Shown: piece after piece, positions 30,480-46,835 of the stretch
How the letters are laid out: every line of letters starts with the position of its first letter
Position numbering within the stretch: the stretch's first letter is position 1
Assembly (NCBI RefSeq): GCF_002093665.1
Contig: NZ_MRWE01000024.1
Span: 25,724 to 74,727, forward strand
Direction of reading: 5' to 3'
DNA length: 49,004 nucleotides
Origin: Rouxiella badensis
Lineage (GTDB): Bacteria; Pseudomonadota; Gammaproteobacteria; Enterobacterales; Enterobacteriaceae
Program-made: the position numbers and the translations under genes
The notes under the pieces: generated by a model
What the model saw: only the letters and a program-made list of their open reading frames with translations
Database searches by the model: none
What the model was told of the DNA's origin: nothing

Positions 30480-30722
30480 ATGGGAAAAGCAAACGTACGA
30501 ATAGGCAGTTTCGAGATAGATGACGCACAGCACACCTCGCCGGACGGGCAAGGCGGCGACAAGGTGCACATTCCCTGCAAGTCTGACCCAGACTTATGCA
30601 TGCAGCTCGACGGCTGGGATGAAAACGTTAGCGTGCCTGCTGTGGTCGATGGCCGTCAGTCGATACTCTACAAAGAGAAATATGACAGCCAGAAAGACGA
30701 GTGGATTATGCGTTTTGAATAG
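30480..30722 (+). CDS. yebV: DUF1480 family protein YebV
   Basis: This small cytoplasmic protein of unknown function belongs to DUF1480; E. coli YebV has 78 residues and this one 80. The ATG at 30480 (MGKANVRIGSFEIDD) is chosen because GGAG is seven bases upstream and the N-terminus matches. Hallmarks are IPCKSDPDLCMQLDGWD and WIMRFE at the end. Its last 17 bases overlap the end of the convergent C39-like gene, so the two transcripts must be complementary there. Confidence 0.94.
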   Translation: MGKANVRIGSFEIDDAQHTSPDGQGGDKVHIPCKSDPDLCMQLDGWDENVSVPAVVDGRQSILYKEKYDSQKDEWIMRFE

Positions 30723-31715: not shown

Positions 31716-31798
31716 AATTTATCCTTTTTATTTTACCGGTCTACGGGGTTAACTCTGTAAACATTAGCATGAAAATTTATCGCCGGGGATGCCGTCGA

Positions 31799-34678
31799 TT
31801 ACGGACACTTCACCGGCATCGTTTGCGGCCACAGACGGGTATTACCGCTGCCGTAAAGCACCTGTATACCGCACTCGTGGTCCACGCGAGCCAACGGTTT
31901 GCCGGTCGCGTCAAGCATCATCGACATTTTAGCCGTGGAGACAATCGCCACACCGCTGTTAAAGGCCGAGACGGCATTAAACACCGGCGGAATGACAAAG
32001 CTGCCCTGCGCATTGATATAACCATAGTTTTCCCCAACCTGCGCAAAAGCCAGCCCTTCGGAAATCAGCCCCAGACCGCTAAAGTTTATCGCTGCGGACG
32101 GGTGCCCCTGTGCGTCAATCCAGGTTTTATTGCCGTCGGCCTCGCTCAATACCGCCTGACCACCCTGCATGCCACTGCCGATGCCAGGGGTGGTAATCAC
32201 CAGCTTGCCGGTGGTATCGACGTAGCGCGTGGTCGGTTTGCCATCTTCTGTATCGTAAGAAACCGACATATCGCTGCCGGCCGGAAGCTGCCAGTTGCCG
32301 TCAGGCATCGCGGCGACACGCACGCCTTTTTCATCGATAAGCTCGGTGCCCTGCGGCTGAATGCGCAGCGCACGGGCATTGACAAACGCTGAACTCGGCA
32401 GGATTTGTGGCTGAATCTGCCAGATGCCCTGCGCGTTGAGATAGCCAATCTGCGGTTGACGAGAGAGTTTGACCCAGTCGCCCACCGCCGTAATCTTGGT
32501 CTGCTGCTCGTGCAGCTCGATGTTGCCCTGCGCGTCAAGCAGCCACGACTGTCCTTCCGCCGAGGTCGCCAGAATGCGGCCGTCGTTGAACTGATTGACG
32601 TTGAGGTCGGTCGTCAGGCCAATGCGAACCTTGCCGTCGTTGGCAATAATTTCTGACTGTAGCTCCGACGCCGGTTGGTCTGGGGTTTTGCGCGGCAGAG
32701 TGAGCTGCCACAGCGCATTGTTGATGCGACGCACGCTGGCATAGTCCGGTGCCACCAGCAGTTTGCCGCCGGCATCGATAATACCCCATTGGCCGTTTGG
32801 CAACTGTACGTCAGCCAGACCGTTCTCGAAGGTGCCTACCGATTGATAGTTCGGCCCAACGATGACCTTCTGGTTAACCACGTCATAGATGCCCCACAGC
32901 GCGCCCTCAGCGGCCGTCTCGCGGAAACGGAACCAGCCGTTGCCCACCGACTGCAACTCGAACTCGTTCGGCAGCGCGAAATGCTTACCGTGAGTGTCGA
33001 TAGTCGTCAGCTTGCCGTCTTGATAATCCAGAGCATAGCCATTGATAAACGGCGCGATATTATCCTCCGTGAGAGGAATAAGCGTTTTGCCCTGGGCGTC
33101 AACCACACCGGTTCCCTGCGCAGTTTTAACGATAAACTGCTGGGCCAGACCGCTGCGCGCCGACTCACTGCTGTCGGCTGGCTCAATATCCTGCCACTTG
33201 CCTTCAATCTGCACACCGCCGTCTGCACGAATGAATCCGGCACCTGCTTTCGAAGCATCCGGGTCGGGCCTGATCAACGCCAACGGGGAAGATTTATCAG
33301 TCTGCTGGTCGTTAAGCGGCTGAATGCGATAATCGTTCAACGCGGCAACATTTTTGGCATTCAGCAGCGTTTTACCGGCGTTATCGATGATATTGATCAG
33401 CGCACCCTGCTCGTCGTGCAACCAGAGACGACCGTTGATCACCTCGGCATTGTTGACCTGCGCCAGCCAGTTCACCGGCTGCGCACCGCCAATCAGACTC
33501 CCATCGGGTGAGATGATGGCATTCACCTTGTGCTGATCGCCCCGCGTGGTCAGCAGGAAGCTGCCGCTAGGCTGGTCGAACGGCACACTGCCCTTCGGCA
33601 AAGTAATGATCTGTTTCTTGCCGGGCACAAATACCGTCAGGTTCTCTTTACCGCTGTTATCCAGCAGGAACTCGCCCTGCACGGTCAGACCGGCGACGGC
33701 CTCATTGCTCAGCGAGGCGATTTCATTGCCGTCGTTATCAAGCAGGCTATTTTTGTCGGCCGTTTTAGCCAGCCAGAACTTGTCATTCAGCGGGCTAACG
33801 GACTGATAAGTCTTGTCATTCAACACGCCGTCGGTGCGAATCAGCTGCACACCGTCTTGGGTTTTGGCTATCGCCAACGCCGTATTGCTGTCATTTAGCG
33901 TAATGTTGCTGAACTGTGGGTTGATACGCCAGTCCAGATTCTGACTGGCGATGCCATAGCCCTGATCGGCGTCGCGAGCGATAAACAGTCCGCTCTGCCC
34001 GAAAGGCAGCACCACTTCCATCTTGTCATTGGCCACGTGGCGCTTGTCGTCAGGCGACAGCAGCACGGTTTTGTAGTTCAGCGCCAGTCGGGCCGGATTA
34101 CCGTCGGACAACTGTACGTCATCGACCAACGCATCGAGTGGCTTGCCAACGGTTTGTCCCTTACGGTTGATGATTTCGTTTTTGCCAGCATTGTTGACCA
34201 CTGCAAGGTCAACCTGAGTGAAATTCCCGGCCTTATCAAAGATCGGCTGAATAACCCAGTTGCCGGTATTATCGATGTATCCCCATTTGCCTTTTTGCTG
34301 CGCCGCGGCGAGACCGTAGTAATAGTCACCGACCTGCTCAAAAACAGGTTTAATCACCAATTGACCCCGATTATCGAGGAAGCCCCAGCGGTGGCCGTCC
34401 AGGCCTTTCTCCAGCGCGACGTCATCGATAGCCTGCTGAGCATCGGGAAGCAACACGGCAGCACGGCCATCATGCACCGGGCGGATACAAATATTCAGAG
34501 TGGCAGGCTGCGCCGTTTCGGCACGCAGCGTGGCGTCGGTCAGGTTAGACGGCCCGAAACAGGCGGTGTCGGTATCGGCCTGAGCCGCAAAGGTCAGACC
34601 CAGCAGGCCAACGGTCCCACCGACGGTGATAACCTGGCGCACGGCGCGCGAAAGAGGCTTAAGGTTCATCAGTTTCAT
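31799..34678 (-). CDS. Large exported WG-repeat protein, second of a tandem pair
   Basis: The ATG at 34678 overlaps the stop of the upstream paralogue as ATGA and opens an export signal (MKLMNLKPLSRAVRQVITV..., cleavage near AQA-DTDTA), giving 959 residues. WG/KWG-type units recur along the whole chain, for example HRWGFLDNRGQLVIKPVF, GKWGYIDNTGNWVIQPIF, GQWGIIDAGGKLLVAPDY and ENYGYINAQGSFVIPPVF. Two Cys lie close after the signal (ACFGP, NICIRP) and two at the C-terminus (HECGIQ, VKCP), the same 2+2 plan as its partner. The function is unknown. Repeated beta structure suggests a secreted or periplasmic binding scaffold. Confidence 0.85.
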   Translation of the reverse strand: MKLMNLKPLSRAVRQVITVGGTVGLLGLTFAAQADTDTACFGPSNLTDATLRAETAQPATLNICIRPVHDGRAAVLLPDAQQAIDDVALEKGLDGHRWGFLDNRGQLVIKPVFEQVGDYYYGLAAAQQKGKWGYIDNTGNWVIQPIFDKAGNFTQVDLAVVNNAGKNEIINRKGQTVGKPLDALVDDVQLSDGNPARLALNYKTVLLSPDDKRHVANDKMEVVLPFGQSGLFIARDADQGYGIASQNLDWRINPQFSNITLNDSNTALAIAKTQDGVQLIRTDGVLNDKTYQSVSPLNDKFWLAKTADKNSLLDNDGNEIASLSNEAVAGLTVQGEFLLDNSGKENLTVFVPGKKQIITLPKGSVPFDQPSGSFLLTTRGDQHKVNAIISPDGSLIGGAQPVNWLAQVNNAEVINGRLWLHDEQGALINIIDNAGKTLLNAKNVAALNDYRIQPLNDQQTDKSSPLALIRPDPDASKAGAGFIRADGGVQIEGKWQDIEPADSSESARSGLAQQFIVKTAQGTGVVDAQGKTLIPLTEDNIAPFINGYALDYQDGKLTTIDTHGKHFALPNEFELQSVGNGWFRFRETAAEGALWGIYDVVNQKVIVGPNYQSVGTFENGLADVQLPNGQWGIIDAGGKLLVAPDYASVRRINNALWQLTLPRKTPDQPASELQSEIIANDGKVRIGLTTDLNVNQFNDGRILATSAEGQSWLLDAQGNIELHEQQTKITAVGDWVKLSRQPQIGYLNAQGIWQIQPQILPSSAFVNARALRIQPQGTELIDEKGVRVAAMPDGNWQLPAGSDMSVSYDTEDGKPTTRYVDTTGKLVITTPGIGSGMQGGQAVLSEADGNKTWIDAQGHPSAAINFSGLGLISEGLAFAQVGENYGYINAQGSFVIPPVFNAVSAFNSGVAIVSTAKMSMMLDATGKPLARVDHECGIQVLYGSGNTRLWPQTMPVKCP

Positions 34679-37452
34679 TGTGCCTCTCCGTTTTGAGCGG
34701 AATTGGCACAACTCACCGTTTTCGCAGGCCAGGTTTGTTTGTTTTTGGCATCCAGAATAACGCGCTGATTACAGCGCAGCGCAAACTGCGCCTGCACAGC
34801 GCCGTCGGTGTTGATAACCTGCACCAGCCCCTTGGCGGCCACCCAGGCGCGTTTCTCGCTAAAGTCGGTCGCCCAATTGTATTTCGGTAGAATCGTGAAG
34901 CTACCGGTGCCATTGATGTAACCAATAAGCGGACCGTAGGTATCCTGCTTCACCGCTTTGGCACGGGTGTCTTTCATCGCACCGACCTGGGTAAAGTAGC
35001 TGCCAATCAGCTGTTTGCCGCTGGCATCGATGAATCCATACAGACCGTTAGCGCCCCGCAGCGGCACCATGCCCTCGCTCGAGGCGGCAGGCAGGATGCT
35101 GTTCAAGCCAGGATAACGTTGAACTTCATTGCCCTGCGTATCAAAGAGTACGGTTTCGCCGGTGCTGTCGTCATTCATGACAATGCGATCCATCGAGGCA
35201 AGCGGCTGTGCATTGTCTTTATCAGCCAGAGGCTCAATGCCGTTTTGATCGATCAGGGTAATGCGTTTGTCGCTCAGCGCGCTGGCCCAGTTTTGTGGCG
35301 TAATAAAGTTCAGTGGAGCCGAATAGGCTGGCGCAATCTGCCAATTGCCCTGGTCATCGACAGCACCATAGTGCGGCCCAAAGCTCAGCAGCGTCCAGTC
35401 ACCGTCAATGTGAATAGACTGCGGCACAACGTCTTTACTGACCACCGAACGGCCGTCGTCATCCATCAGGCCAACGCCGCCGTTTGCCGGCTGGATTAAC
35501 CAGTGATTATCCCCCACCTTCTGCGGGTTGCTCAGCAAATCGCTTGCTAATGCCAGGCCGCTGATGGCGCTGTAGAGGCTATAGCGCGTGCTGCCGTCAC
35601 CGTGTTCGCCCGGCTGGTCGCCGTCGGCAATCACGAAAATACTGTCGCCTACCGGCTGCGGCTTGCCGGTTCGGTTAGCGTCTGGAGCAATGGCCCACTG
35701 ACCTTTGGTATCGATAACTCCCCATCCTGCGGCCACTTTTGCCAGTGCGTAACCGTCGTGGAATGCCTCAAGCTGTGTGAAGCGGGTTGGAATTTTAGCG
35801 CTGTTGCTGGCGATGTCCCAGATACCCCAACGGCGGTCATTATTGTCGCCCTCGGTGTAAAGCAGGTCACCGCCGGAAATTGACTGCGCGGTCTGTATCA
35901 CGCGAGTTGGGATATCAATAAGGTTGCCCAGTGAGTCAATAACCTTGCGGCTTTCAACGTTCTTGTCATCGACGACCATCGCCCAGGCATAAGGCCCGTC
36001 AAACGGCGATATCTGCTTGAATTTTGGCTGGATTACCCACTGACCGTCGGCATTGACCGCGCCAGTCGTGCCGTTTTCGGTTTTCACCACCAGCGGCCCC
36101 ATACGGCCCGGCGCATCCAGCGACGCCCACTGCGGGCTGTTAAAGATAAGCCCTTGCGAGGTGAGAATCGCAGGCACTTTCTTTTTGTCGACCGGCGTCA
36201 GCAGCGCCATCGGCAGCCCCGCAGGCTGAGACACGGCGTTGTCGTCAAGTCCGCGAGCATCCAGCGGCTGAACCTTGTAATCGTTTAGCGCAGTCAGCGT
36301 TGCCTGCGTCAGCAGACCGACGCCGTTGCTGTCATAAACCTGCACCAGCTGGGCAGATTTATCCTCTGTGCCACGGTCAGCCTGCAATACCCAAAGATGC
36401 CCGTTCTGGGTGAGTAACTGAGGCTTGTTGGCTTTAACATCGACAATGCGATCGTCAGGGCCCACCATCACGATGCCCTTACTGCCCTGACCAATCAGCC
36501 AGTGGCCCCAGGTGTGGAATTCCTCGGCCTGATCGGCTGGAATATCCTGAGTTTTCTCTAATTTATTACTGAGTAATTGCTGAACATTGTTTGCATCCAC
36601 CACCAGCCAACTGCCTGAACTCAGTGGTTTTACGGATTTGTACTGTTCTTTGCTCAGACTGACGCCGTTGCGGTCGAAGAAGGTCCAGCTTGACTTGCCC
36701 TTCACCGCAACCACGTTACCGTTAAGCATCGGTTCGTTGCGGGTCTTCAGCTTCATGGGGTCAATCGCCCATTCGCCGCTGTCATCGAGGTAACCCCAAT
36801 ATCCACTTTGCGCCGTATCGCGCTGCTGAGCAGGAATAAGGCCAGACTGCGGCTCGTCAAGGTTCATAACATCATCCGGTAGCGACACGGAACGGCCTGA
36901 TGATGCATTCCACAGCGCAGGAGAGATCTGCATCTGGACGCTGGCCAGCGGCTGCCCTTGTTTAAAACCTTCAGAGTTGAGAGAGGCGGCGAACGGTAAG
37001 GTCTTGATGACTGCCCCCTGGCGGTCTATCAACGCCAGACGATCGTCGATGACCACCAACGCAGTGCCTTTGGCGTTGAAATCGGTAGCGCGGGTGAAGC
37101 GTGCCGGGATTGCCAGATTGCCTTTTGCATCTATATAGCCAAACAAGTCATCTTTCTTGACAGCGGCCAGTCCGTTGACAAAGCCACGGGCTTCACGATA
37201 TGCAGGCTCGATGGCCATCTTACCTGAAACATCGATGTATCCCCACAGGCCTTGCGACTCACGGGCCGAGCCCATCATTACCGGTGCCAGCCCCTGCTGG
37301 AAAGGCTGCTGGCAGCCATCCGCGGTTTTGGCAATGGCACACGCGCGAAGCCAAGCCTCATCGGCATGGGCTGGCGTAGAAAATGCTGCTCCGAGAACCA
37401 GCGCTAAGGCACTGAAATTCATGACATGTTTTAGTGTTTCGGAATAAATCAT
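34675..37452 (-). CDS. Large exported WG-repeat protein, first of a tandem pair
   Basis: This 925-residue protein starts at the ATG at 37452 with AAGGGAATC upstream. A signal peptide spans about residues 1-30 (cleavage near AHA-DEAW). WG-repeat units include GLWGYIDVSGKMAIEPAY, DLFGYIDAKGNLAIPARF, GYWGYLDDSGEWAIDPM, GWGVIDTKGQWAIAPD and GLYGFIDASGKQLIGSYF. The Cys pairs (ACAIAK/DGCQQP and LRCNQR/VSCANS) match its partner's placement. The central motif NDYKVQPLDARG corresponds to NDYRIQPLNDQQ in the partner, so the two arose by duplication and then diverged. It is first of a four-gene minus-strand set. Function unknown. Confidence 0.85.
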   Translation of the reverse strand: MIYSETLKHVMNFSALALVLGAAFSTPAHADEAWLRACAIAKTADGCQQPFQQGLAPVMMGSARESQGLWGYIDVSGKMAIEPAYREARGFVNGLAAVKKDDLFGYIDAKGNLAIPARFTRATDFNAKGTALVVIDDRLALIDRQGAVIKTLPFAASLNSEGFKQGQPLASVQMQISPALWNASSGRSVSLPDDVMNLDEPQSGLIPAQQRDTAQSGYWGYLDDSGEWAIDPMKLKTRNEPMLNGNVVAVKGKSSWTFFDRNGVSLSKEQYKSVKPLSSGSWLVVDANNVQQLLSNKLEKTQDIPADQAEEFHTWGHWLIGQGSKGIVMVGPDDRIVDVKANKPQLLTQNGHLWVLQADRGTEDKSAQLVQVYDSNGVGLLTQATLTALNDYKVQPLDARGLDDNAVSQPAGLPMALLTPVDKKKVPAILTSQGLIFNSPQWASLDAPGRMGPLVVKTENGTTGAVNADGQWVIQPKFKQISPFDGPYAWAMVVDDKNVESRKVIDSLGNLIDIPTRVIQTAQSISGGDLLYTEGDNNDRRWGIWDIASNSAKIPTRFTQLEAFHDGYALAKVAAGWGVIDTKGQWAIAPDANRTGKPQPVGDSIFVIADGDQPGEHGDGSTRYSLYSAISGLALASDLLSNPQKVGDNHWLIQPANGGVGLMDDDGRSVVSKDVVPQSIHIDGDWTLLSFGPHYGAVDDQGNWQIAPAYSAPLNFITPQNWASALSDKRITLIDQNGIEPLADKDNAQPLASMDRIVMNDDSTGETVLFDTQGNEVQRYPGLNSILPAASSEGMVPLRGANGLYGFIDASGKQLIGSYFTQVGAMKDTRAKAVKQDTYGPLIGYINGTGSFTILPKYNWATDFSEKRAWVAAKGLVQVINTDGAVQAQFALRCNQRVILDAKNKQTWPAKTVSCANSAQNGEAQ

Positions 37453-37925
37453 CCGATTCCCTTATGACTGAAAAATGATGAAAAGTTTGAAGCTGGAACC
37501 CACAGAGATTGATAAGGTACCGCTGGCAGCGAAAATTCGATGATAATCAGATTCAATGTAATGTTGTCCGCTGTTTCTTATAGGGTGTCAGCTTGCGCAA
37601 GAAAAAGCAGCTATTTTATTAGCTGGTAACGAATGAATACACTTTATAACGACATCAGCGTGTAAAAAAACGACATTTTGCCCTTTCTAGCGCAAAAATT
37701 TGTTTAAAACTCGGCAACCTGACGCTGAACTGCGCCACAGGCTTCGCCCATAACGCCGTTTTACGAAATTCTCATCTTAAATTTATAGCAGATACAGAGC
37801 GATAGTCCGTCCTTCGTTTGACACTCTGTGAAGCATTGCCAAGCGCATTCAGAAACTGCATCCTGTGTGATGCACAACGCAACCTCTCAACAGTTATCCT
37901 CTTATAAAGAGACAGATTAACCGCC
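37453..37925. other. Divergent intergenic region between the WG-repeat operon and the M20 gene
   Basis: This 473-base stretch must contain the promoters of the WG-repeat operon (minus) and the M20 amidohydrolase gene (plus). I see A/T-rich tracts but no recognisable operator, small gene or strong hairpin. Confidence 0.5.
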
Positions 37926-39104
37926 ATGACTATTAAAAATCTTTGCACCATTGCTGACGTAGCCGACCTCGAGCCTGGCCTGCGTGAGATTCGCCAACAC
38001 CTGCATCAAAACCCAGAATTATCCAACGAAGAAGCCAAGACTGCCGAACTGGTTGCCAAAAAACTCCATGAGCTGGGGTTTGAGGTTACGACCGGCGTTG
38101 GCGGCTACGGCGTTGTCGGCTCCCTTAAGGTCGGTAACGGCACGCGCAGCATCGGTATTCGTGCCGATATGGACGCCCTGCCTATCCTCGAACAGACCGG
38201 TCTTGCGTACGCCAGCAACGTGAGCGGCAAAATGCACGCCTGCGGCCACGATGGCCACACCACGATGCTGCTCGGTGCGGCCGCACAGCTGGCACGCAGC
38301 CGCAACTTCTCCGGCACTGTGCACCTTTTCTTCCAGCCTGCGGAAGAAATTGGCTTCAACAGCGGTGCTGAACGTATGCTGGCTGAGGGACTGTTCGACA
38401 GATTCCCTTGCGACGCAGTCTTCGGCCTGCACAACCACCCGGGTTATCCCGTGGGTAAAATGATGTTCCGCACGGGCGCGTTTATGGCAGCTTGCGATAC
38501 CGTTAACGTGACCATTCACGGTAAAGGCGGTCACGCGGCGCGTCCTCACATGACCGTTGACCCAATTTTGGTCGCCAGCAGCCTGGTTGTCGCACTTCAG
38601 AGCATCATTTCACGCAACATCGACCCTAATGAAACCGCCGTTATCACCATCGGTTCGCTGCATTCGGGCTTTGCCGCCAACGTTATCCCTGATAGCGCGC
38701 GTCTCGAGATGAGCGTGCGTTCATTTGATACCGGCGTGCGTAAAATTCTGGAAGACCGTATCAAAGCGCTGATCGCCAGCCATGCGGAAGGTTACGGCGC
38801 TCGCGCAGAGATTGACTATGTGCCCGGTTATCCGGTGTTGGTCAACCATCAAAAAGAGACCGAATTTGCCACTCAGGTCGCTCAAGAGCTGCTCGGTGAA
38901 GAGAATGTGGTACCCGACCTGCCGCCTATCTCCGGCAGCGAGGACTTTGCCTACTTCCTACAGCAAAAACCGGGCTGCTTCCTGCGTATGGGCAACGGTG
39001 ACAGTGCCGTACTGCATAACCCGGCCTATAATTTTAACGACGAAAGTCTGCCCTTTGGCGTCGCCTACTGGACCCGTCTGGTCGAACGCTACCTGGCCGA
39101 TTAA
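37926..39104 (+). CDS. M20 family amidohydrolase (hippurate hydrolase-like)
   Basis: This 392-residue protein belongs to the M20D amidohydrolase group, metal-dependent enzymes that cleave N-acyl or N-aromatic acyl amino acids (hippurate, indole-acetyl amino acids). Motifs are RQHLHQNPELSNEE near the N-terminus, RADMDALPI, MHACGHDGHT with metal ligands, QPAEEIG with the catalytic Glu, HNHPG and the dimer-domain HGKGGHAARP, then SGSEDFAYF. No signal peptide is seen, so it is cytoplasmic. It stands alone between the WG operon and the extensin-like gene; no transporter is next to it. The exact substrate cannot be read from sequence. Confidence 0.88.
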   Translation: MTIKNLCTIADVADLEPGLREIRQHLHQNPELSNEEAKTAELVAKKLHELGFEVTTGVGGYGVVGSLKVGNGTRSIGIRADMDALPILEQTGLAYASNVSGKMHACGHDGHTTMLLGAAAQLARSRNFSGTVHLFFQPAEEIGFNSGAERMLAEGLFDRFPCDAVFGLHNHPGYPVGKMMFRTGAFMAACDTVNVTIHGKGGHAARPHMTVDPILVASSLVVALQSIISRNIDPNETAVITIGSLHSGFAANVIPDSARLEMSVRSFDTGVRKILEDRIKALIASHAEGYGARAEIDYVPGYPVLVNHQKETEFATQVAQELLGEENVVPDLPPISGSEDFAYFLQQKPGCFLRMGNGDSAVLHNPAYNFNDESLPFGVAYWTRLVERYLAD

Positions 39105-39130
39105 TTGAAAGACTCTGTCAGCGTCTTCTG

Positions 39131-39829
39131 TTAGCGGCAGAATCCAAACCAGCGCATGCCAAGATGAAAATGATTGGCGTGCGCTGCGTTATAATCCGGC
39201 CCAATAATATTGCCAAAAAACGGACAGGCTCCGCGAAAGACCTGATGCAGATAGTCGGCGTCCTTTCCCTCTCGTTTCCATCCGCTTGCTACGGTCACAT
39301 CTTCACCGTCCTTCATCCTGAAACCCGCGACGTCCAGGGCCTCGGCAGTCGCATGCTCACTCAGCCTGCCCACCGCACGGTGATAAACATTGCGACAGGC
39401 AAAGCTGCCGAGGTGGTCGATTCTGACCAGCCTTTGGCCAAAGACCTGCTCGGCAAGGGGTGCGGCCGCCTGTGCCACAAACATCGTGCCGCTGACTGCC
39501 AACGGACAGCTCGCCAAAAAGCTCGAGCTCAGCGCCACCGAACCGAAATTTTGTACTCGCACTGCGCCGGTCAAAGGACACTGGCCACCGCTATCAGGTA
39601 CAGATTGGAAATTAATCAGGCCTGCGGCCCTGGCACTCTCGAGCACGGCAAGGCACGCAGCCTGATTTTTACTTATTTTCCTGAGTTTATACTGAGTCAT
39701 CAGGCCGGGAGCATCGGTCACTGACAATGGCGTAAAAGGATTGTATTGCGCGGGCAGTTGGCTCTCTAACCACGGAAAAAAGGCGACACTCACACCCAGT
39801 AAAACCAACGCGAAGAGGATATAACGCAT
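39131..39829 (-). CDS. Extensin-like C-terminal domain protein
   Basis: The start at 39829 (MRYILFALVLLGVSVAFFPWLE) gives 232 residues with one N-terminal hydrophobic anchor or signal. The rest is the extensin-like C domain: CLAVLESARAAGLINF near residue 58, GGQCPL, SFACRNVYHR, the LSEHATAEALDVAGFRM motif, and HANHFHLGMRWFGFCR at the end. The His/Asp/His-x-His arrangement resembles LAS-type (VanY-like) metallopeptidases, so a role on peptidoglycan peptides is plausible. Multiple Cys suggest disulfides outside the cytoplasm. It faces the S51 gene divergently. Confidence 0.8.
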   Translation of the reverse strand: MRYILFALVLLGVSVAFFPWLESQLPAQYNPFTPLSVTDAPGLMTQYKLRKISKNQAACLAVLESARAAGLINFQSVPDSGGQCPLTGAVRVQNFGSVALSSSFLASCPLAVSGTMFVAQAAAPLAEQVFGQRLVRIDHLGSFACRNVYHRAVGRLSEHATAEALDVAGFRMKDGEDVTVASGWKREGKDADYLHQVFRGACPFFGNIIGPDYNAAHANHFHLGMRWFGFCR

Positions 39830-39912
39830 ACCCTTTGCTCCTCTGGCGACCATGACATTACGAATTTTCTATTATAGTGAAGGATATGCGATTTATTTGA
39901 GACGAGGTAAAG

Positions 39913-40629
39913 ATGACCGTCAACGCTGAAAATACCGTACCGAATCAGGTCCACATTGTAGCTATAGGCGGTGAGACTGCGGCCGATATGCAGCAGATTA
40001 CGGCCATCGATCGCTATATCCTGTCCTTAAGCCAAAAAGAAAGTCCGCAGATTCTGTATATCTCCACGGCGAGCGGAGACGTTCCAGAGAGGATTGAGCA
40101 ATTCGAGAAAAAATTCGCGTCGGCCGGCTACCTGGTAGAGAGCCTGTCTTTCTTCCGCACGCCTTATCCTACGGTTAAACAGATCGACGAGATGATAGCG
40201 CGAGCTGACGTGATTTTTGTCGCGGGCGGTAATACGCGGGCCATGCTGGCAGTCTGGAAAGAATTTTCAATCGATCAACAGCTCAAATCGGCCATGCGCC
40301 ACGGCACTATCCTCTGCGGCGTGAGCGCCGGAGCTATCTGCTGGTTTGATTTAGGGCATTCGGATTCGGGCGGTGGCTATTCACTCATCCCAGGCTTGGG
40401 GCTGCTGACGGGCGTCATGTGCCCGCATTTCGGATCTGAGGAAGGACGCGAGGAATCTTTCAGTGCGTTGCTGGCAGAGCAGAACATTTTGCCCGCCTAC
40501 GCCGCCGATGACGGCGTAGCCCTGCATTTTCGAGATGGGAAACTTCATAAAATAATCAGGACCGATGCGGCAGAACACGGCAAAACACTGATCTCACTCA
40601 GCGATAGCGAGAGGCCCACTGCTGAATAG
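39913..40629 (+). CDS. Peptidase S51 (dipeptidase E-like) protein
   Basis: A 238-residue cytoplasmic protein of the class-I glutamine-amidotransferase-like S51 family, whose best-known member cleaves Asp-X dipeptides. The nucleophile Ser is in the elbow LCGVSAGAICWF, with ADVIFVAGGNTRAML upstream and VMCPHFGSEEGRE and YAADDGVALHF downstream, the family positions for His and Glu. It is closer in layout to the YgaJ/Lmo0363-type proteins than to E. coli PepE. Its 3' end overlaps that of the convergent idi by 32 bases. Confidence 0.85.
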   Translation: MTVNAENTVPNQVHIVAIGGETAADMQQITAIDRYILSLSQKESPQILYISTASGDVPERIEQFEKKFASAGYLVESLSFFRTPYPTVKQIDEMIARADVIFVAGGNTRAMLAVWKEFSIDQQLKSAMRHGTILCGVSAGAICWFDLGHSDSGGGYSLIPGLGLLTGVMCPHFGSEEGREESFSALLAEQNILPAYAADDGVALHFRDGKLHKIIRTDAAEHGKTLISLSDSERPTAE

Positions 40630-41161
40630 TCTCTTGCCCGAAATGGGCAAGGATAACCTTGAACCACGCAGTAAACCTTGAAGAGTCCTGCTCGACGGCA
40701 GTAAAGACGTCGGGCACCGAGATCCACTGCCAACCTTCCGCCTCTTCCGGATTAAGCTCGGGCGTTCTTTCGAACAGGCCGATAAAAGTATGGTTAAATT
40801 CATTTTCTACCAAACCATTCGAGACATCGACGCGGTAGAGGATCTGGTCTACTTCCTGCAATTCACAGTGGAATCCCATCTCCTCATACAGCCTGCGGGT
40901 AGAGGCAGCCAGGTTACTCTCACCGGGACGTGGGTGGCCGCAGCAAGAGTTGGTCCAAAGACCGCCAGAATGGTACTTTCCACTGGCGCGTTGTTGAAGC
41001 ATGAGACGTCCCTGACTATCAAAAATAAATACCGAAAAAGCGCGATGCAGTGCGCCCTGCAGATGAACCTGCATCTTGGTGCCTACGCCGACCTTGTTAT
41101 CCTGTTCATCAACCAGAATCAGGCGTTCTTCTTGCACTTTATCTTCAATAATGAGGGACAT
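40598..41161 (-). CDS. idi: Isopentenyl-diphosphate delta-isomerase, type I
   Basis: Idi interconverts isopentenyl and dimethylallyl diphosphate, balancing the two isoprenoid building blocks. The 187 residues fit the type I NUDIX-fold enzyme (E. coli 182). The catalytic Cys is in GLWTNSCCGHPRPGE, the NUDIX-like helix in RRLYEEMGF, and the catalytic Glu in NEFNHTFIG. It starts 4 bases after the stop of a lipoprotein gene, so the two are probably co-transcribed, and its 3' end overlaps the S51 gene. No carotenoid genes are near. Confidence 0.94.
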   Translation of the reverse strand: MSLIIEDKVQEERLILVDEQDNKVGVGTKMQVHLQGALHRAFSVFIFDSQGRLMLQQRASGKYHSGGLWTNSCCGHPRPGESNLAASTRRLYEEMGFHCELQEVDQILYRVDVSNGLVENEFNHTFIGLFERTPELNPEEAEGWQWISVPDVFTAVEQDSSRFTAWFKVILAHFGQETIQQWASRYR

Positions 41162-41165
41162 AACT

Positions 41166-41561
41166 TTACTTCACTCTTGTCAGGCTATAGCGTTGCGCAT
41201 CATTTAAAGCCGTTTCATAACTTTGCGGCGTACCGTCCACCTGGATGGTCAATGCTTTATCTATAGGGGTTATTGCACAGGAAAATTTCACTTTCAGGCT
41301 GTGCACACCGTTCGCCAGATACAGGTCAACATACTGATTTTTCTGTAGTCCGGCCGCTTCTTTGTCATCAACATAAACAATCAGCGGACAGCTCTCGTCA
41401 AGAATCGATCCCGCAAGTTGGGGCTGTCGGTGTACACGAACTTTGGTGGTGTCGGGTTTACTGGTGGTATAGGCCTGCAAAACCTGTTGCGTTGGGGCAT
41501 AAGGGCCACTAGAACACCCAGCCAACACCAGTGCAGCACAAATCATGAGTAACTTTCGCAC
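41166..41561 (-). CDS. Small lipoprotein of unknown function
   Basis: The GTG at 41561 has GGAG eight bases upstream and opens a lipoprotein signal (MRKLLMICAALVLAGC), giving 131 residues. The mature part has PYAPTQQVLQAYTT, then VYVDDKEAAGLQKNQYVDLYLANGVHSLKVKFSC, reading as a beta-rich domain of the PEGA-like or DUF2846-like type (small domains that display GxY-type turns). Two Cys in the mature part (ESCPLIV and KFSCAIT) may pair. The gene is immediately upstream of idi. I do not recognise a named homologue. Confidence 0.75.
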   Translation of the reverse strand: MRKLLMICAALVLAGCSSGPYAPTQQVLQAYTTSKPDTTKVRVHRQPQLAGSILDESCPLIVYVDDKEAAGLQKNQYVDLYLANGVHSLKVKFSCAITPIDKALTIQVDGTPQSYETALNDAQRYSLTRVK

Positions 41562-41680
41562 GTTAAGGTCTCCGCGAGATAACAAAGGAATTGTTCATCG
41601 CCTTAAAGCAATCAAATTTCAGAGAGCTAAACCGTGGCAGAGTACTCATGATGCTTGAATCGGCGATATCTGATTTCATC

Positions 41681-41712
41681 TGCACTCGCGCTGCTAAGGT
41701 AGCGCTAGTGCA
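41681..41712. repeat. Long inverted repeat upstream of the lipoprotein-idi pair
   Basis: TGCACTCGCGCT and AGCGCTAGTGCA pair across an eight-base loop with one mismatch. No T-run follows on either strand, so it is not a standard terminator. It is about 120 bases upstream of the lipoprotein gene and could be an operator or a processed RNA stem. Confidence 0.55.
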
Positions 41713-41763
41713 GAGAATAGAGAAGGCCTGTAATGTAACGGAAGTTGAAGAATTAAAATGTTC

Positions 41764-42033
41764 TTATGGTGCGTTTCCCAAGATGTTGCTGGTCTCGAAC
41801 TCAACATGCCCACCGACGTGGAAATGATGTTGATCAAACGCCTCACGGCCCATCGGCGTCACTTTCGTTATCTCTCCTTCATAATTACCGTCTTCAACCT
41901 CCGTAATCCTCGTCTCGAGTCGATAACTCACCGGCGGATTTCCTACGGGGAAGGTCACCAGAGTCACTTTGTCACCCAGCGTAAACTGAGTTAACAGCGG
42001 CAAAGGCGCTTGCTCAAACATGGCTTCACTCAT
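41764..42033 (-). CDS. Hypothetical protein, 89 residues
   Basis: A well-placed ribosome-binding site (AAAGGAACTGAAA-ATG) supports this short gene. The product is acidic and soluble, with alternating strands: FTLGDKVTLVTFPVGNPPVSYRLETRITEVEDGNYEGEITKVTP, then HHFHVGGHVEFE near the end. This reads like a small beta-barrel (SH3- or CSD-like). I do not recognise a family. It stands alone on the minus strand at the left edge of the AT-rich tract. Confidence 0.6.
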   Translation of the reverse strand: MSEAMFEQAPLPLLTQFTLGDKVTLVTFPVGNPPVSYRLETRITEVEDGNYEGEITKVTPMGREAFDQHHFHVGGHVEFETSNILGNAP

Positions 42034-42410
42034 TTTCAGTTCCTTTTAGGATGAGAGGGGTAGACGAAGATAACAGTCGTTGTTTTTTTCACCATGAGCT
42101 TAAAACTCACTCACCCATAAAGCGTAGAACATTGGACAACTTTTATTTGTGGTCTTGATTAGGAAATTCAGAAAATCTCTCGGAATTATGGTCGCTTAGC
42201 GATCTCGGAAAGTTGTACAACCTGGTCAAAATCCTGTACCGATTTTGCTAGCAATTCTGTGCCAGACACGCCCTTTCCTGGCATGAAAGAGTGAAGTCAC
42301 AGCATGACTAACCCATTAAAAAATTTAAGTTATCTTTAATTAATTAATTGCCTTAGCGTTTTATTAGTACGTATTTAAGAATACTTAAATAGCACAAATT
42401 GATCAAATGT

Positions 42411-42443
42411 AAGTTGTACAAAGTAAGAGTTTTGTATAAGTTT
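42411..42443 (+). promoter_or_regulatory. MerR-type (MlrA/BluR-like) operator
   Basis: AAGTTGTACA, then 12 bases, then TGTATAAG forms an imperfect palindrome. The arrangement TTGTACA-N12-TGTACAA is the one I recall for E. coli MlrA, a paralogue of BluR, which controls the ycgZ-ymgA-ymgB genes. It lies 110 bases upstream of a ymgB-family gene. The assignment combines a sequence match with family knowledge; the regulator gene is not in the window. Confidence 0.55.
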
Positions 42444-42486
42444 AATGAAGCTCAATTAGAGCTCGTAACGAAGATGCTTTGCATTG

Positions 42487-42531
42487 CCACTGAAGGTGCC
42501 ACTCGATTTCCACCTTCAGTGGTATTTTTTT
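42487..42531 (+). terminator. Perfect terminator hairpin in the ymgB-like leader
   Basis: CCACTGAAGGTG pairs perfectly with CACCTTCAGTGG around a 12-base loop, followed after TA by seven T. It ends only 22 bases before the ymgB-like ATG and there is no gene upstream to terminate. It is therefore a leader attenuator or the end of a small RNA. Confidence 0.85.
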
Positions 42532-42552
42532 GACTACTCATGGGGTTATAAA

Positions 42553-42801
42553 ATGTCTCAAATAAACAGCGTTGAGTTAGAAAAATCCCGCGTCAAGACT
42601 GCTCATGCCATTAAAAGCGAATCAGACGTCATTCAGGAAATAAAGATAGAACTTTCCCTCAAAGGACGACTGGTCAATAACAAAGCAATCATGGCAAAAC
42701 TGCTCGAACGATTAGAAATAGAAACAGACGTGGTCAAATCAGATATTTATCGAAACGCCCTCGAAACAGTAGTATTTCGTACCCCGGACGACCTGATTTA
42801 A
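42553..42801 (+). CDS. YmgB/AriR-YcgZ family biofilm/acid-response regulator
   Basis: The ATG at 42553 (MSQINSVELEKSR) has GGGG upstream and gives 82 residues. The C-terminal half matches E. coli AriR (YmgB) and YmgA: RLVNNKAIMAKLLERLEIETDVVKSDIYRNALETVV with the ending RTPDDLI (E. coli RYTADDM). Members are small, helical dimers that relay blue-light/BluR and stress signals into the Rcs pathway, raising colanic acid and lowering curli. An in-frame codon at 42484 would start inside the terminator stem and is rejected. The gene is alone here, where E. coli has three or four paralogues. Confidence 0.85.
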   Translation: MSQINSVELEKSRVKTAHAIKSESDVIQEIKIELSLKGRLVNNKAIMAKLLERLEIETDVVKSDIYRNALETVVFRTPDDLI

Positions 42802-42802
42802 A

Positions 42803-42845
42803 AAATCTTCATCACAGGGCGCGATACCTTATGTGCCTTGTGATG
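42803..42845 (-). terminator. Stem-loop between the ymgB-like and NUDIX genes
   Basis: CATCACAGGGC pairs with GCCTTGTGATG (one G-U pair) across a 14-base loop. A T-run follows a few bases later on the minus strand only. It probably ends the NUDIX transcript and perhaps the ymgB-like one. Confidence 0.5.
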
Positions 42846-42888
42846 GTCAGATTATGCGTATGTCGCTGCATCCTTTGCCTATAGGCTC

Positions 42889-43305
42889 TCAAACTGGGTT
42901 AATGACTCGCCCTACTGCTCGCCCTATCGACGTCTTGTACCCCATTGGCATATTGAGCTCTGCAATCTCATTCAGACTAAACATCCCTATTTCTTTATGC
43001 TCATGGCTGACTTTTATCGTTTGGCTTGAGGCCGGTTCAACCTTCATGAGATAGGTCACAATCAATATTTCTTTAGCACCAATCCGGTAAAGCCAGGCGT
43101 CGATAATGCCCTGCACCGACGACGCTATCTGCGTCTCCTCATACATTTCACGGATAAGACATTCTTCAGGCGTTTCCCCTTTCTCGAGCTTTCCCCCCGG
43201 CAACTCCCACTCTTCCCGCTCGTTTTTTAATAGCAGAATCTTGTCGCTAATCTGCACAATCCCCTTAATCGAGACGGGAAATAGCGATTCCTGGTACGGC
43301 TGCAT
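42889..43305 (-). CDS. NUDIX hydrolase
   Basis: A 138-residue NUDIX-fold protein. The NUDIX box runs from GGKLEKGETPEECLIREMYEETQI, near residues 37-60: the Gly, the first Glu and the REx2EE metal-binding core are intact, but the usual Gly before the last hydrophobic residue is Gln. Upstream strands (VSIKGIVQISDKILLLKNEREEWELPGG) fit the family. Substrate cannot be inferred; small nucleotide-sugar or dNTP analogues are typical. It stands alone and faces the ymgB-like gene. Base composition is somewhat poorer in GC than the core genes. Confidence 0.88.
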   Translation of the reverse strand: MQPYQESLFPVSIKGIVQISDKILLLKNEREEWELPGGKLEKGETPEECLIREMYEETQIASSVQGIIDAWLYRIGAKEILIVTYLMKVEPASSQTIKVSHEHKEIGMFSLNEIAELNMPMGYKTSIGRAVGRVINPV

Positions 43306-43469
43306 AAGCTTCTCCGTAAGAAAGAGAGGATGTTTTTATAAAAGATAGATAAAAAATAAGACCATCAGATGACAGATTTATTCGTCAAACTGAACGCGAC
43401 ACTCAGAGCTCTCAGATATTTAAGGCACGAATGTTAAGGTAATAAGAATAGAGACATTGCGCCTTGCTC

Positions 43470-43793
43470 CTATAACCAACGCCTGCACTGAGAGACCTTG
43501 AGATGGCTGTTGTAGAAGACTTTGTGCTTACGGACCCCGCATCCCTGACAGCGGGCAATCACGTAGGTAGAAGGATAAGCTCTGCCTGATGGGCTCATCG
43601 CGCCTAAATGCTGAAGTTTTAGAATTTCCCAACGATGACCGTGCGGGATAAAGAGTAGCTGACGAGGTTTGCGGAGAGAACGGAAATGGTAACGATGGAA
43701 GATTTTTAAATATTTTAGATATCCTCGTCGGCAAACCGTACTTAGAGTGATTTCAAATACCATAACAACGGACAAATAGAACAACGTAAACAT
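43470..43793 (-). CDS. Hypothetical protein, 107 residues, possible Cys/His metal site
   Basis: I do not recognise this reading frame. It has a hydrophobic N-terminus (MFTLFYLSVVMVFEITLST), a basic middle and a C-terminal part with C-x2-C, then K-H and a final C (IARCQGCGVRKHK...SQC), which could be a zinc knuckle. The ribosome-binding site is weak. It lies alone in the AT-rich tract and could be a decayed or mobile-element gene. Confidence 0.4.
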   Translation of the reverse strand: MFTLFYLSVVMVFEITLSTVCRRGYLKYLKIFHRYHFRSLRKPRQLLFIPHGHRWEILKLQHLGAMSPSGRAYPSTYVIARCQGCGVRKHKVFYNSHLKVSQCRRWL

Positions 43794-44028
43794 TGTTTTT
43801 ACCCAGATATTTTCAACAGCATTAAAATTTGTCGCTATTTTTCTTAGGGCTGATGGGAGCGGGATTAAAAGAATTTGGCCCCAGACTCACGACGCATAAA
43901 CAGCGGGGAGTAATTTAGTTAATTTCATTATCTGGGATGTTGATGTAGCGCAAGGATGGGGTGATAGGACAGGCTTTAAGGCTATTATCGAGAGCAATAT
44001 TTCACGCTAAGTAAGATGTCGTTAATGA

Positions 44029-44361
44029 CTAAGATGAGATGTGAAACTTGTTGACCCGCTCCCCGTATGTGATCCAGCCATATTCAGGAATAACCGGCTT
44101 CATTCTGGCTGCATATTCTGGAAACCGGCAAATTCGGAGGGCATCCTCCAGAGACATAAACCCACTATCGTTCAGGCATTTCTGCCTTAACCTGCCGTTG
44201 AAGGACTCCACCGTCGCATTGTCCGTCGGCGTTCCTGGGCGTGAGAAGTCGATCCTTACCCCTCTTTCATACGTCCACCTGTCCAGCATTTTTCCTGTAA
44301 ATTCAGAGCAGAATTCGCATTTCAGTGATCCCACGGATACGCAGGCGCAGTGCGCTGCCAT
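44029..44361 (-). pseudogene. IS3-type orfB (transposase) fragment
   Basis: From FCSEFTGKMLDRWTYERG to PGTPTDNATVESFNGRLRQKCL and FMSLEDA the fragment matches the C-terminal catalytic part of IS3-type DDE transposases, including the final Glu in VESFNGRLRQ. The N-terminal two thirds with the first two Asp are missing, and the sequence after FMSLEDA is unrelated. It is a relic produced by deletion. Confidence 0.85.
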
Positions 44362-44597
44362 CGGCAGTTCTTTTTTGCCAGCACGTCCTGCAGCATCGCC
44401 TTGTCGAGGCTGAGGTCAGCAACCAGCCTCTTCAGCCGCAGATTTTCCTCTTCCAGCTGCCGCATATGTTTGAGTTCAGAAGGAGAAATTCCGCCGTATT
44501 TCTTGCGCCAGGTGTAAAACGTGGCATCGGAGATACCCAGCTCGGCATGCTTGAGAGCAAAGACAATCTGCTCTTCGGTGAATCGTGACTTTTTCAT
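44322..44597 (-). pseudogene. IS3-type orfA remnant with internal deletion
   Basis: The ATG at 44597 follows GGAGGGGGG. The protein opens MKKSRFTEEQIVFALKHAELG and then jumps to ISDATFYTWRKKYGG. Intact relatives have about 10 residues between (the pattern xPVxEVCRKxG), so an in-frame deletion of about 30 bases is inferred. The zipper SELKHMRQLEEENLRLKRLV and LDKAMLQDVLAKK follow. After this the frame enters unrelated residues up to the stop at 44322. Confidence 0.82.
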
Positions 44598-44919
44598 CTG
44601 CCCCCCTCCGTTCAGGGGAGTCAATATCATGCCGGAATTCTGTTTCTGAATGGAGCAGGATTTTGGGTCAAGGTCACGCGTTTATAGCAACGATCAACGG
44701 AAAAAAATCCTAGTGATCTGCCTGCGTATATGTCGAGATTTAAACCAGATGAGACATACGTCAAAGCGGCTCTTTCGATGGTTAGAAATGAGAATTTCTG
44801 ATAGCTTTAAATAGAATGTTAAAAGATTTAGATAGCGTGCAGATTATATCAAAACGGTTTTATTTTCGGAGGTAACCATAGAGTCGATTAGCGCTCTGTC
44901 TTCAGAGAGATTTTTAAGC

Positions 44920-45195
44920 ATGATGACCGCTTACTTTGTCACACCGGTCGAACTATTCACGGCTGCCCGCAAGAAATCTTTCAGTATTTACAGTGAAAAT
45001 AGCCGACTGTTTATCCTGAACTCCAAAGGCAATCAACGCCCATTGCGTCAAACCGAGTTAGAAGAGTTTCATAATCTGTTTAAAAAGACGGGAGGCATTA
45101 TGCCAATAACCTATCGCGACGTTACTTTCAACTCGTCTTATATCTTAGCGGCAATTGAGCACATCAATTTTAAGGAAGCTATACATGCCAAATAA
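44920..45195 (+). CDS. Hypothetical protein, 91 residues, upstream partner of a DUF1737 gene
   Basis: I do not recognise a family. The product is mixed alpha/beta and soluble: VTPVELFTAARKKSFSIYS, LFILNSKGNQRPLRQTELEEFHNLFKK and ITYRDVTFNSSYILAAIEHI. The end of the frame overlaps the start of the DUF1737 gene by 11 bases, with AAGGA inside it, so the two are coupled. The ribosome-binding site of this gene itself is weak (AGAGAG about 14 bases upstream). The overlap is the main reason to believe it is translated. Confidence 0.55.
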   Translation: MMTAYFVTPVELFTAARKKSFSIYSENSRLFILNSKGNQRPLRQTELEEFHNLFKKTGGIMPITYRDVTFNSSYILAAIEHINFKEAIHAK

Positions 45196-45382
45196 TCCAC
45201 CCGAAGGCTTACCAAGATACAGGCTTTTGACTGGCCCGGATGACGCATCTTTCTGTCATCGTGTTTCTGCCGCACTTGAGCTTGGGTATGAGCTTTACGG
45301 AAATCCGGCAATTACCTACGACTCTGACAAAAAGACCGTGATCGCTGCCCAAGCAATAATTTGGAAAAGTGAAAAGAGTTAG
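45185..45382 (+). CDS. DUF1737 domain protein
   Basis: The ATG at 45185 gives 65 residues, MPNNPPEGLPRYRLLTGPDD followed by ASFCHRVSAALELGYELYG and VIAAQAIIW. This is the typical DUF1737 pattern (RYRLLTGPDDxxFCxRVxxALxxGxxLxGxP). AAGGA lies eight bases upstream, inside the preceding gene. It is a small stand-alone domain of unknown function, common in proteobacteria. The pairing with the 91-residue gene looks like a two-gene unit. Confidence 0.82.
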   Translation: MPNNPPEGLPRYRLLTGPDDASFCHRVSAALELGYELYGNPAITYDSDKKTVIAAQAIIWKSEKS

Positions 45383-45437
45383 ATCACCCTTTTTCTAACA
45401 GGCCGGGCGGGTTATGGAATAGACAATCATCAGAAAT

Positions 45438-45638
45438 CTAATCACGAGTTATTCGACATGAAAAACATCCCTTTTTCGCATTATGGGCCAGAATAAATTT
45501 AACTTCTGGCCTCTGAAATAACGCTAAAATTTTTGCCTTAACTTCTTCAGGTTGCGTAACTGTACCCTCGACTATCAGTGTTTTATTGATTTCGACAGGG
45601 CCGTCAAGCGTGACTTTGCCTGTGATTTTTTTCCTCAC
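45438..45638 (-). CDS. Possible small hypothetical protein (66 residues)
   Basis: The frame opens with GTG at 45638 without a visible ribosome-binding site. The sequence (ITGKVTLDGPVEINKTLIVEGTV, then EVKAKILALFQRPEVKFILAH) is amphipathic and protein-like with two Cys near the end, but I do not recognise it. It lies beside the integrase remnant and may be a fragment of a lost gene. Confidence 0.3.
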   Translation of the reverse strand: MRKKITGKVTLDGPVEINKTLIVEGTVTQPEEVKAKILALFQRPEVKFILAHNAKKGCFSCRITRD

Positions 45639-45927
45639 GATTTGAACCGATATATCCCTGACACAGCGGCAGCCAACCGGTGGTTAACTCGCCGATGGTG
45701 AATGCCCACGACTTAAGAGCGGTCTCGAAATTTACCCAATCTTTATGGTCCTTAGGTGTCATCAGCAAAGGGTGGCGTTACGCCTCAGGATTGGACGTTT
45801 ATTCTTTGCCAAACGGCACCGCAGAGTGAGCAAGCAGGGGAAGCTGAGCAACTTTGGTCACGCATTCCAAAGTCTCTGCCAGATGAAGAGGATTGGGAAT
45901 GCGTTGAGCTTAGGTATAAAAAACCGC

Positions 45928-46140
45928 CACTTTATGATGTCCGGCGGCATTATTGTCGTGCTGCAACGCATTCTCGGCCACTCGGATATCCGCGTAACGA
46001 TGCGCTATGCCCACTTTGCCCCTGACCATTTAGAAGATGCCTTAACCAATAATCCGTTATCGATTTTGGGTGCAAAAATGCCTGCCAAAAGTGGCGGTAA
46101 AATGGCTACAGAGGTTCTTTCTGGGAACAATTCAGGGTAA
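45928..46140 (+). pseudogene. 3' remnant of a tyrosine-type integrase
   Basis: The last 70 codons read HFMMSGGIIVVLQRILGHSD, then IRVTMRYAHFAPDHL and EDALTNNPLSILG. This is the C-terminal end of a phage-type tyrosine recombinase, with the LGH histidine and the nucleophilic Tyr in TMRYAHF. The preceding HxLRHTF arginine box and everything upstream are missing, replaced by unrelated sequence in the same frame. It ends 56 bases from the terminator end of sdsR, the expected place for an integrase beside its att site. Confidence 0.85.
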
Positions 46141-46195
46141 CTCGATGAGGTTAAGTAGTTGATTTTATTTTAAGTGGTTGATTTTGATAGCGGGC

Positions 46196-46299
46196 AAAAA
46201 AAAGACCGAATACGATTCCTATATTCGGTCTAGGGAAATGGCTCTTGGGAGAGAGCCGTGCGCTAAAAGTTGGCATTGATGCAGGCGGTTAAGCCATAC
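46196..46299 (-). ncRNA. sdsR: Small RNA SdsR (RyeB)
   Basis: The minus strand matches, from memory, enterobacterial SdsR almost base for base: GCCTGCATCAATGCC, CAACTTTTAGCGCACGG, CTCTCTCCCAAGAGCC, ATTTCCCTAGACCG and a final AATATAGGAATCGTATTCGG stem with a run of eight T. The inferred RNA is 104 nt. SdsR is a very abundant sigmaS-dependent, Hfq- and ProQ-binding RNA that represses ompD, tolC, mutS and others in stationary phase. Its place next to yebY is as in E. coli. A -10-like CTACTCT lies seven bases upstream of the inferred start. Confidence 0.92.
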
Positions 46300-46305
46300 A
46301 ACTTA

Positions 46306-46313
46306 AAGAGTAG
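46306..46313 (-). promoter_or_regulatory. SigmaS-type -10 element of sdsR
   Basis: CTACTCT on the minus strand ends seven bases before the predicted first base of SdsR. It resembles the sigmaS extended -10 CTAYACT, with the favoured C just upstream. sdsR is known to be sigmaS-dependent. Confidence 0.55.
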
Positions 46314-46496
46314 TCGAGCTTAAATGCTTTTCCAGCGAGTTTGACGACCTGTGATAATTACTTAACGAAATGAGTTACGTTTTGTGACAACATTCGCAAA
46401 ACCACCCATTAACTGTGTGGAATTCAAGCAAGAAGGGGGTTTTTAGACAGGGGGATATTAAAGAGGCCGACGTGGATCAGCCTCAGGAAGCTCAAC

Positions 46497-46835
46497 TTAA
46501 CACAGGGTTCCAGCGCGCTCGATAAACGGGGCAAGACTCATCTTGTGGCCGGGATTTTTGGGGTCATCCAGCTGAATAATGCTCAGCGGCTGTGCACTCA
46601 CCTTCCCTTCTTTCACCCACTGCTCTGCTACATCATTCAGCGGATACTGCGCCAGCGTGCTGTCATTAATCACGAACAGGGCTTTGCCCGGTCGGCATTG
46701 CAGCATCACTTCTTCACGGGTGAACGCCCATGCCTTACCATATTCCAGACGGCTCACGGTAACAACTTGCGGCGCTGCGAAACAGCTGGCAGACAGGGTG
46801 AGCAACAGGCCCCCAAGTAGCGTTTTTTTCATCAC
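46497..46835 (-). CDS. yebY: DUF2511 exported protein YebY
   Basis: A 112-residue periplasmic protein with a signal peptide (cleavage near CFA-APQV). It matches E. coli YebY along its length: [31 protein letters not shown] and the C-terminal [14 protein letters not shown]. Two Cys (QCRPG and final C) probably pair. It is the third gene of the copC-copD-yebY set, which suggests a link with copper handling. The molecular role is not known. Confidence 0.95.

Follow-up and report, generated by a model that had tools for sequence, protein, structure and literature searches.

Phage insertion at the sdsR (ryeB) small-RNA gene has already been published for Salmonella, where the att site of phage phiW104 of DT104 was assigned to the ryeA/ryeB locus (Balbontin et al. 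2008, as related in an excerpt of PMC7380047). According to this excerpt, integration takes place in the last 23 bp of ryeB and alters the 5' part of ryeA, so that a bidirectional small-RNA locus serves as the hot spot. A genomic island, Cfr111.52.RyeB, is assigned to the same gene by its name (PMC10111431, in excerpt). The locus described here, within a window of 49,004 nucleotides from Rouxiella badensis, shares with phiW104 the site at the sdsR end and the setting in a bidirectional small-RNA locus, yet the host is a different one and the window holds a scar only.

Two families of integrases are relevant to this site. For the P2-type family, which we denote type 1, the best phage match to our reference integrase is that of Escherichia phage Midge (63.8%), and the Salmonella phages PSP3 (Peduoviridae, Eganvirus) and SEN1 are among the nearest (61.8%). 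PSP3 resembles the type-1 prophages in having an Ogr-like regulator and D near int, but no sdsR core stands beside its int in the 250 bases read, and it has HANIRETM in place of the HSDIRVTM motif carried by the remnant in the window. The second family, type 2, is of the HK022/lambda type and is found at the same hairpin; the integrase of Actinobacillus phage vB_Apl-pPE4 is 64% identical to our type-2 reference and adjoins the same att sequence. Type 2 differs from the remnant in its PF09003 arm-binding domain and in a repeat that starts in the hairpin loop, upstream of the type-1 core. A search of the open-licence literature found no account of P2-type integrases that form a clade at sdsR. 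PSP3 also carries a DUF2511 protein (L102:243-581) that is 32% identical to YebY, the product of the host gene flanking sdsR, and that may possibly be linked to the insertion site.

The sdsR end and the integrase remnant

The elements of the locus in the window are as follows:
46197-46296, minus strand: sdsR (RyeB) small-RNA gene (Rfam RF00111 SdsR_RyeB, 109.7 bits)
46193-46338, plus strand: part of ryeA (SraC), antisense to sdsR (Rfam RF00101 SraC_RyeA, 140.3 bits)
46231-46196, minus strand: SdsR terminator, an 11-pair stem (46231-46203) followed by a T-run, holding the attachment site
46193-46213, minus strand: remnant att core GTATTCGGTCTTTTTTTTGCC, from comparison of the core with relatives
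46153-46186, plus strand: two direct repeats, AAGTAGTTGATTTTA and AAGTGGTTGATTTTG, 19 bases apart, read from the sequence
45928-46140, plus strand: C-terminal piece (70 residues) of a tyrosine integrase of the P2 type (HFMMSGG...LQRILGHSDIRVTMRYAHF...stop), from profile, tblastn, motif and tree
46497-46835: yebY (DUF2511), from a family match
30420-30722: yebV (DUF1480), from a family match

The names yebV and yebY follow the E. coli annotation; among named sequences, the window's YebY is matched best by that of Rouxiella silvae (94%).

The integrase remnant lies in an open reading frame (45745-46140, plus strand) whose similarity to the integrase family is confined to its C-terminal part. The frame matches phrog_7269 (1.8e-16), phrog_1 and phrog_216, and its match to PF00589 covers profile positions 144-170 of 172 and scores under the curated cut-off. 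Positions 45928-46113 are 71% identical to a full-length Rahnella integrase over 62 alignment columns (4e-22), covering residues 294-348 of the 352-residue reference. The remaining matches of this integrase across the window all have E-values near 1, and with the full-length relative as query nothing integrase-like was detected 5' of 45926. What remains is thus the C-terminal catalytic block of a tyrosine recombinase of P2-type sequence, placed among P2-type rows that include PSP3, and a full-length gene with its N-terminal part and complete active site is absent. A remnant of the type-2 integrase was also sought at 42-46.4 kb and not found.

The stop codon of the remnant (46140) is separated from sdsR by 56 bases, as the initial annotation had stated from the sequence; coordinates and profile matches agree with it, and the same annotation was right that the SdsR terminator is intact, its stem and T-run being complete. 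The att core follows within ~100 bases of the stop, as in the type-1 clade specific to sdsR. The repeats AAGTAGTTGATTTTA and AAGTGGTTGATTTTG between the two are likely candidates for arm-type integrase sites, and comparable repeat pairs adjoin other type-1 integrases. The proposal that the element used the sdsR 3' end as its att site is borne out by the same integrase type and core at this site in relatives. A duplicate of the sdsR 3' end, which the initial annotation suggested seeking at the distal side, was not recovered: the core search gave a single copy in the window and no second one elsewhere in the same genome, whereas the same search gave two copies in three Rahnella genomes. A weak match to the core with two mismatches lies far off, at 3893-3910 of the window.

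Integrase families at the sdsR terminator in relatives

Full integrases of 352 residues are present at the same place in Rahnella bonaserana, R. laticis, R. victoriana and R. bruchi. Behind that of R. bonaserana are found a regulator which we take to be Ogr-like (PHROG: transcriptional regulator), a D-type tail protein and a tail sheath gene, and the element is a P2-like prophage. Besides the copy at sdsR, the core GTATTCGGTCTTTTTTTT has a second one at a distance of 34.3 kb in R. laticis and 38.0 kb in R. bruchi, the exact direct repeat in both being the 28 bases GTATTCGGTCTTTTTTTTGCCTGTTTTT; in R. inusitata the distal copy, 37.5 kb off, has one mismatch, and in Hafnia psychrotolerans, as in the window's genome, the core is single. 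Past the far core copy, host genes of the M20 or extensin-like kind resume. As the core spans the 3' arm of the terminator and the T-run, each insertion rebuilds the terminator. The integrase DNA of the four Rahnella species is 89-96% identical, whereas R. bonaserana and R. laticis share only 45% identity at the four-fold sites of three host genes, which indicates that the phages pass from one species to another. Sister species do have full-length integrases at this locus, which the initial annotation had advised seeking in sister strains, together with duplicated sdsR ends, and its description of SdsR/RyeA as an insertion hot spot stands.

Specificity for this site follows the integrase sequence. 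Of 295 genomes of the family searched with the type-1 reference, 91 gave a match at 1e-60, and in the best 30 loci the 260 bases past the int stop were read for the att sequence. Among these 30, the sdsR core stands 55-92 bases past the int stop for 11 of the 12 integrases that share 71% identity or more with the reference, the lone miss (L113) being a second copy in R. inusitata that lies behind a relic adjoining sdsR, and for none of the 18 integrases of 63% identity or less; four of the latter (L122, L123, L124 and L127) have GCGTCTTAACTAA there, like PSP3. In a tree of 32 rows, for which three identical integrase rows were merged, the 12 sdsR-site rows and L113 form one branch (support 100/99), and the site label requires 2 changes as compared to 9.9 in shuffles. 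Adding the relics (38 rows, with M24T3 relic 1 omitted as too short) places 19 sdsR-site rows on one branch, again at 100/99. Although it fills only 17% of the columns, the window row falls in a 97/97 set of five with R. silvae, R. aceris, M24T3 and G004, all of them Rouxiella, and forcing it among the non-sdsR rows is rejected (p-AU 0.033). On these comparisons we assign the remnant to a P2-type integrase clade dedicated to the sdsR site.

Arm-like repeats and decayed int ends just past sdsR in four further loci (L042, L049, L053 and L054) are possible type-1 scars; they were picked out by eye and by arm alignment, no type-1 integrase being matched there.

The lambda/HK022-type integrase is found at the same hairpin in R. 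aceris, R. silvae, Yersinia frederiksenii and others; it carries the PF09003 arm domain and is 42% identical to that of HK022. The 20-mer AGGAATCGTATTCGGTCTTT recurs exactly at a distance of 42.7 kb in R. aceris, 42.1 kb in R. silvae and 41.4 kb in R. rivi, is present three times in Y. frederiksenii, and has one copy in 17 of the 22 genomes searched. In Chimaeribacter coloradensis the exact repeat lies 6.6 kb away, and the integrase part matched in this short element (L056:10541-17190) is the last third of type 2 only. Within the best 30 loci of the type-2 search, the core stands beside 16 of the 20 integrases that are at least 52% identical to the reference; a seventeenth (L151) has a one-base variant of it. 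Over the 30 loci as a whole, no core was found for L142 and L146, and L158 and L167 were unreadable. Integrases of 42% identity or less in these 30 loci have it in the expected orientation in none of 10, one being unreadable, and L169 has a core-like sequence in the opposite orientation. The type-1 and type-2 repeats overlap, type 2 starting in the hairpin loop (AGGAATCGT...) and type 1 in the 3' arm.

Prophages and relics stack at sdsR. In R. silvae and R. rivi a type-1 integrase sits at the distal copy of the 20-mer, past the type-2 one, and M24T3 and G004 have two type-1 relics each. A match to sdsR was found in 45 of 79 relatives; among the best 30 loci, less the window's own, 12 of the 29 have a type-2 integrase or piece within a flank of 1.5 kb and four have a type-1, one of these four (L013) being taken from the gene-order comparison described below. 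In complete E. coli genomes sdsR is present in 5,375 of 5,426; a query of 700 bases, running from sdsR into the type-2 integrase of E2865, is covered to at least 80% at some place in 227 genomes. A query from JB41 across sdsR and pphA has 5,611 places in the 5,375 genomes, an excess that would be in line with a number of split loci similar to 227. The sdsR end of E2865 differs, inside the core, from that of JB41, in which pphA follows, a difference consistent with integration rewriting the last sdsR bases or with strain variation. Nine phage records were matched by sdsR in blastn, and in two of them, pPE4 and ZC-S1_prp, the att sequence stands beside a type-2 integrase.

In Yersinia proxima (L059 near 10423) and Y. 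artesiana (L060 near 2816) the strand of sdsR relative to yebY is opposite; the other 22 of 24 named yebY loci are without such an inversion.

Extent, origin and age of the scar

The interval between yebV and yebY measures about 15.5-15.8 kb in the window as compared to about 1.35 kb in E. coli, and with an integrase at one end of it the initial annotation had taken the whole stretch of ~15.5 kb for an insertion. We compared gene order by tblastn of the window genes on 24 named yebY loci and on Rouxiella genome stretches. The order yebV-ASCH-WG-WG-M20-extensin-sdsR-yebY is common to Ewingella (L053) and an Enterobacterales MAG (L051), the extensin-like gene lying past sdsR, no more than a few hundred bases off, in both, and in Rouxiella G004 (L099) the block from a gene that is presumably YebT-like to ymgB is collinear with the window. 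As S51, idi, two small genes and ymgB adjoin this block also in G002, M24T3 and G004, they are not specific to the scar. Moreover, in R. laticis, R. bruchi and R. inusitata the prophage sits between sdsR and such host genes. That an integrase delivered the entire interval (30.7-46.2 kb) as one island is hence scarcely credible, and an island of 15.5 kb is ruled out by synteny up to 42.8 kb in relatives, the stretch of 30.7-42.8 kb being collinear in Ewingella, the MAG and G004. The acquired part is, by this measure, only ~3.4 kb (42.8-46.19 kb), between ymgB, which ends at 42801, and sdsR. Two large adjacent WG-repeat genes (31799-37452) form a pair that is kept near sdsR in several Rahnella, Ewingella and Rouxiella.

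The stretch from yebV to the remnant reads:
30420-42801: yebV to ymgB, collinear in relatives and outside the island, by synteny
42889-43305, minus strand: Nudix hydrolase gene (PF00293)
44029-44674, minus strand: IS3-family remnant with broken transposase genes (PF01527 and PF13683 at 44029-44630)
44677-45246: 85% identical to L192:13975-14544, between tail genes; holds an open reading frame at 44920-45195
45155-45382, plus strand: small DUF1737 gene (PF08410, 7.8e-21)
45564-45629: phage debris collinear with L192:10970-11035 (1e-9), overlapping a DUF1203 fragment (45438-45638, minus strand)
45658-45701: phage debris collinear with L192:10683-10726, before the tail sheath gene (1e-9)
45822-45901: phage debris, 79% identical to L192:1102-1181, before the terminase genes of the prophage of Rouxiella G002 (5e-13)

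G+C is 45.4% at 42802-46192 as compared to 51.4% in the window, so that the AT-rich DNA noted at the outset is real, as is the IS3 remnant, which has diverged copies elsewhere in the same genome (about 81-89% over pieces). The Nudix gene is present in one of six Rouxiella genomes, the window's own, and was probably acquired. No structural gene behind the remnant is intact and only debris collinear with a prophage is left. The prophage of G002, whose genes include those for terminase, portal, sheath, tape measure and further tail proteins, is matched collinearly, and in a single relative orientation, by four pieces of the window between 44677 and 45901. As this prophage lies 45-59 kb from sdsR rather than at it, and as the DUF1737 gene falls outside the collinear series and has copies of 89-90% at other places in two Rouxiella genomes, some of the debris may stem from a different element.

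The age of the scar was judged against a neutral yardstick of three genes. The arm and remnant DNA of the window is 81% identical to that of M24T3 over 190 bases and 71% identical to that of G004 and of R. silvae, whereas the four-fold sites of yebY, copD and copC are only 44-47% identical between the window and these three (46% for M24T3). Compared with the intact R. silvae integrase over 44 codons, the remnant has 6, 1 and 19 differences at codon positions 1, 2 and 3, with 20 codons changed silently and 3 non-silently; this third-position excess indicates that the divergence was mostly gained while the integrase was under selection. M24T3 and G004 have type-1 pieces in the same position, as does R. 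aceris past a second prophage, and the Rouxiella rows group together in the tree, as would be expected if an ancient relic had been passed down vertically from a time before the Rouxiella species diverged. Given identities so far above those of the four-fold sites, and a pattern of substitution mostly acquired under selection, we consider such descent improbable. The insertion probably postdates the divergence of the species, and the description of it as old in the initial annotation finds no support, the relic being far more conserved than neutral sites.

Based on these data we propose that 42.8-46.19 kb is very probably what is left, after collapse, of one phage insertion or several at the sdsR 3' end. 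Recombination between the attP of a P2-like phage carrying a type-1 integrase and the terminator of SdsR, at its 3' arm and T-run (core GTATTCGGTCTTTTTTTTGCC...), would have left the sdsR terminator complete, placed int directly downstream of sdsR and convergent to it, and pushed the host DNA to the far end. The phage would then have been lost almost entirely through deletions, the IS3 insertion and small acquisitions, together with its distal att and all but the last fifth of int, an order of decay steps that we infer for the window. Placement in the clade, specificity for the site, core copies at both ends in relatives, collinear debris and low G+C support insertion, whereas the single core copy in the genome, the position of the G002 prophage away from sdsR and the 17% column fill count against it.

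Predicted consequences for RyeA

The 3' end of SdsR in E. coli lies at +100 to +102, and a fragment spanning +341 to +132, numbered as for sdsR, contains the ryeA promoter (PMC6610125, in excerpt). As this promoter lies beyond the att site, any insertion should displace it from RyeA, and lysogeny by phiW104 is described as lowering ryeA transcription and raising that of ryeB (PMC7380047, in excerpt, from Balbontin et al. 2008). In the window, the ryeA 5' end and its promoter would fall in phage-derived DNA. A scan for sigma-70-like sites between the int end and sdsR gave none, and the same scan also gave none at the E. coli locus, so that this negative carries no weight.

It could be argued that the integrase end is kept for a role in the host, for example as promoter or leader of RyeA, rather than as mere debris. 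RyeA, if made, must start in phage-derived DNA, and type-1 int ends with arm repeats persist by sdsR where the phage is mostly gone (L050 and L099 by tblastn, L053 by eye) as well as beside a later insertion (L048). Yet the corresponding DNA of R. ecdela and R. woolbedingensis has degenerated to 42-52% identity to the window, and we regard retention for such a role as quite unlikely, the int end in the window being in our reading what decay of the phage has left.

Tentatively, and on sequence comparison, two unrelated integrase families, P2-type and lambda-type, may each have specialised on one stress-sRNA terminator that they use from different points. Every insertion would then rewrite the sdsR 3' end and swap the RyeA promoter, so that arrival and decay of phages might repeatedly reset an RNA switch resembling a toxin-antitoxin pair, and scars might leave SdsR permanently freed from RyeA or newly coupled to it.

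The hot spot known from Salmonella is thus extended to further genera, with a dedicated integrase clade, a defined terminator core and stacking of prophages, and the boundary of the island at this locus is corrected; we regard the site-dedicated clade as a useful extension of what was known. As insertion at the core should displace the RyeA promoter, phage scars such as this one would serve as natural tests of the effect of RyeA on SdsR.
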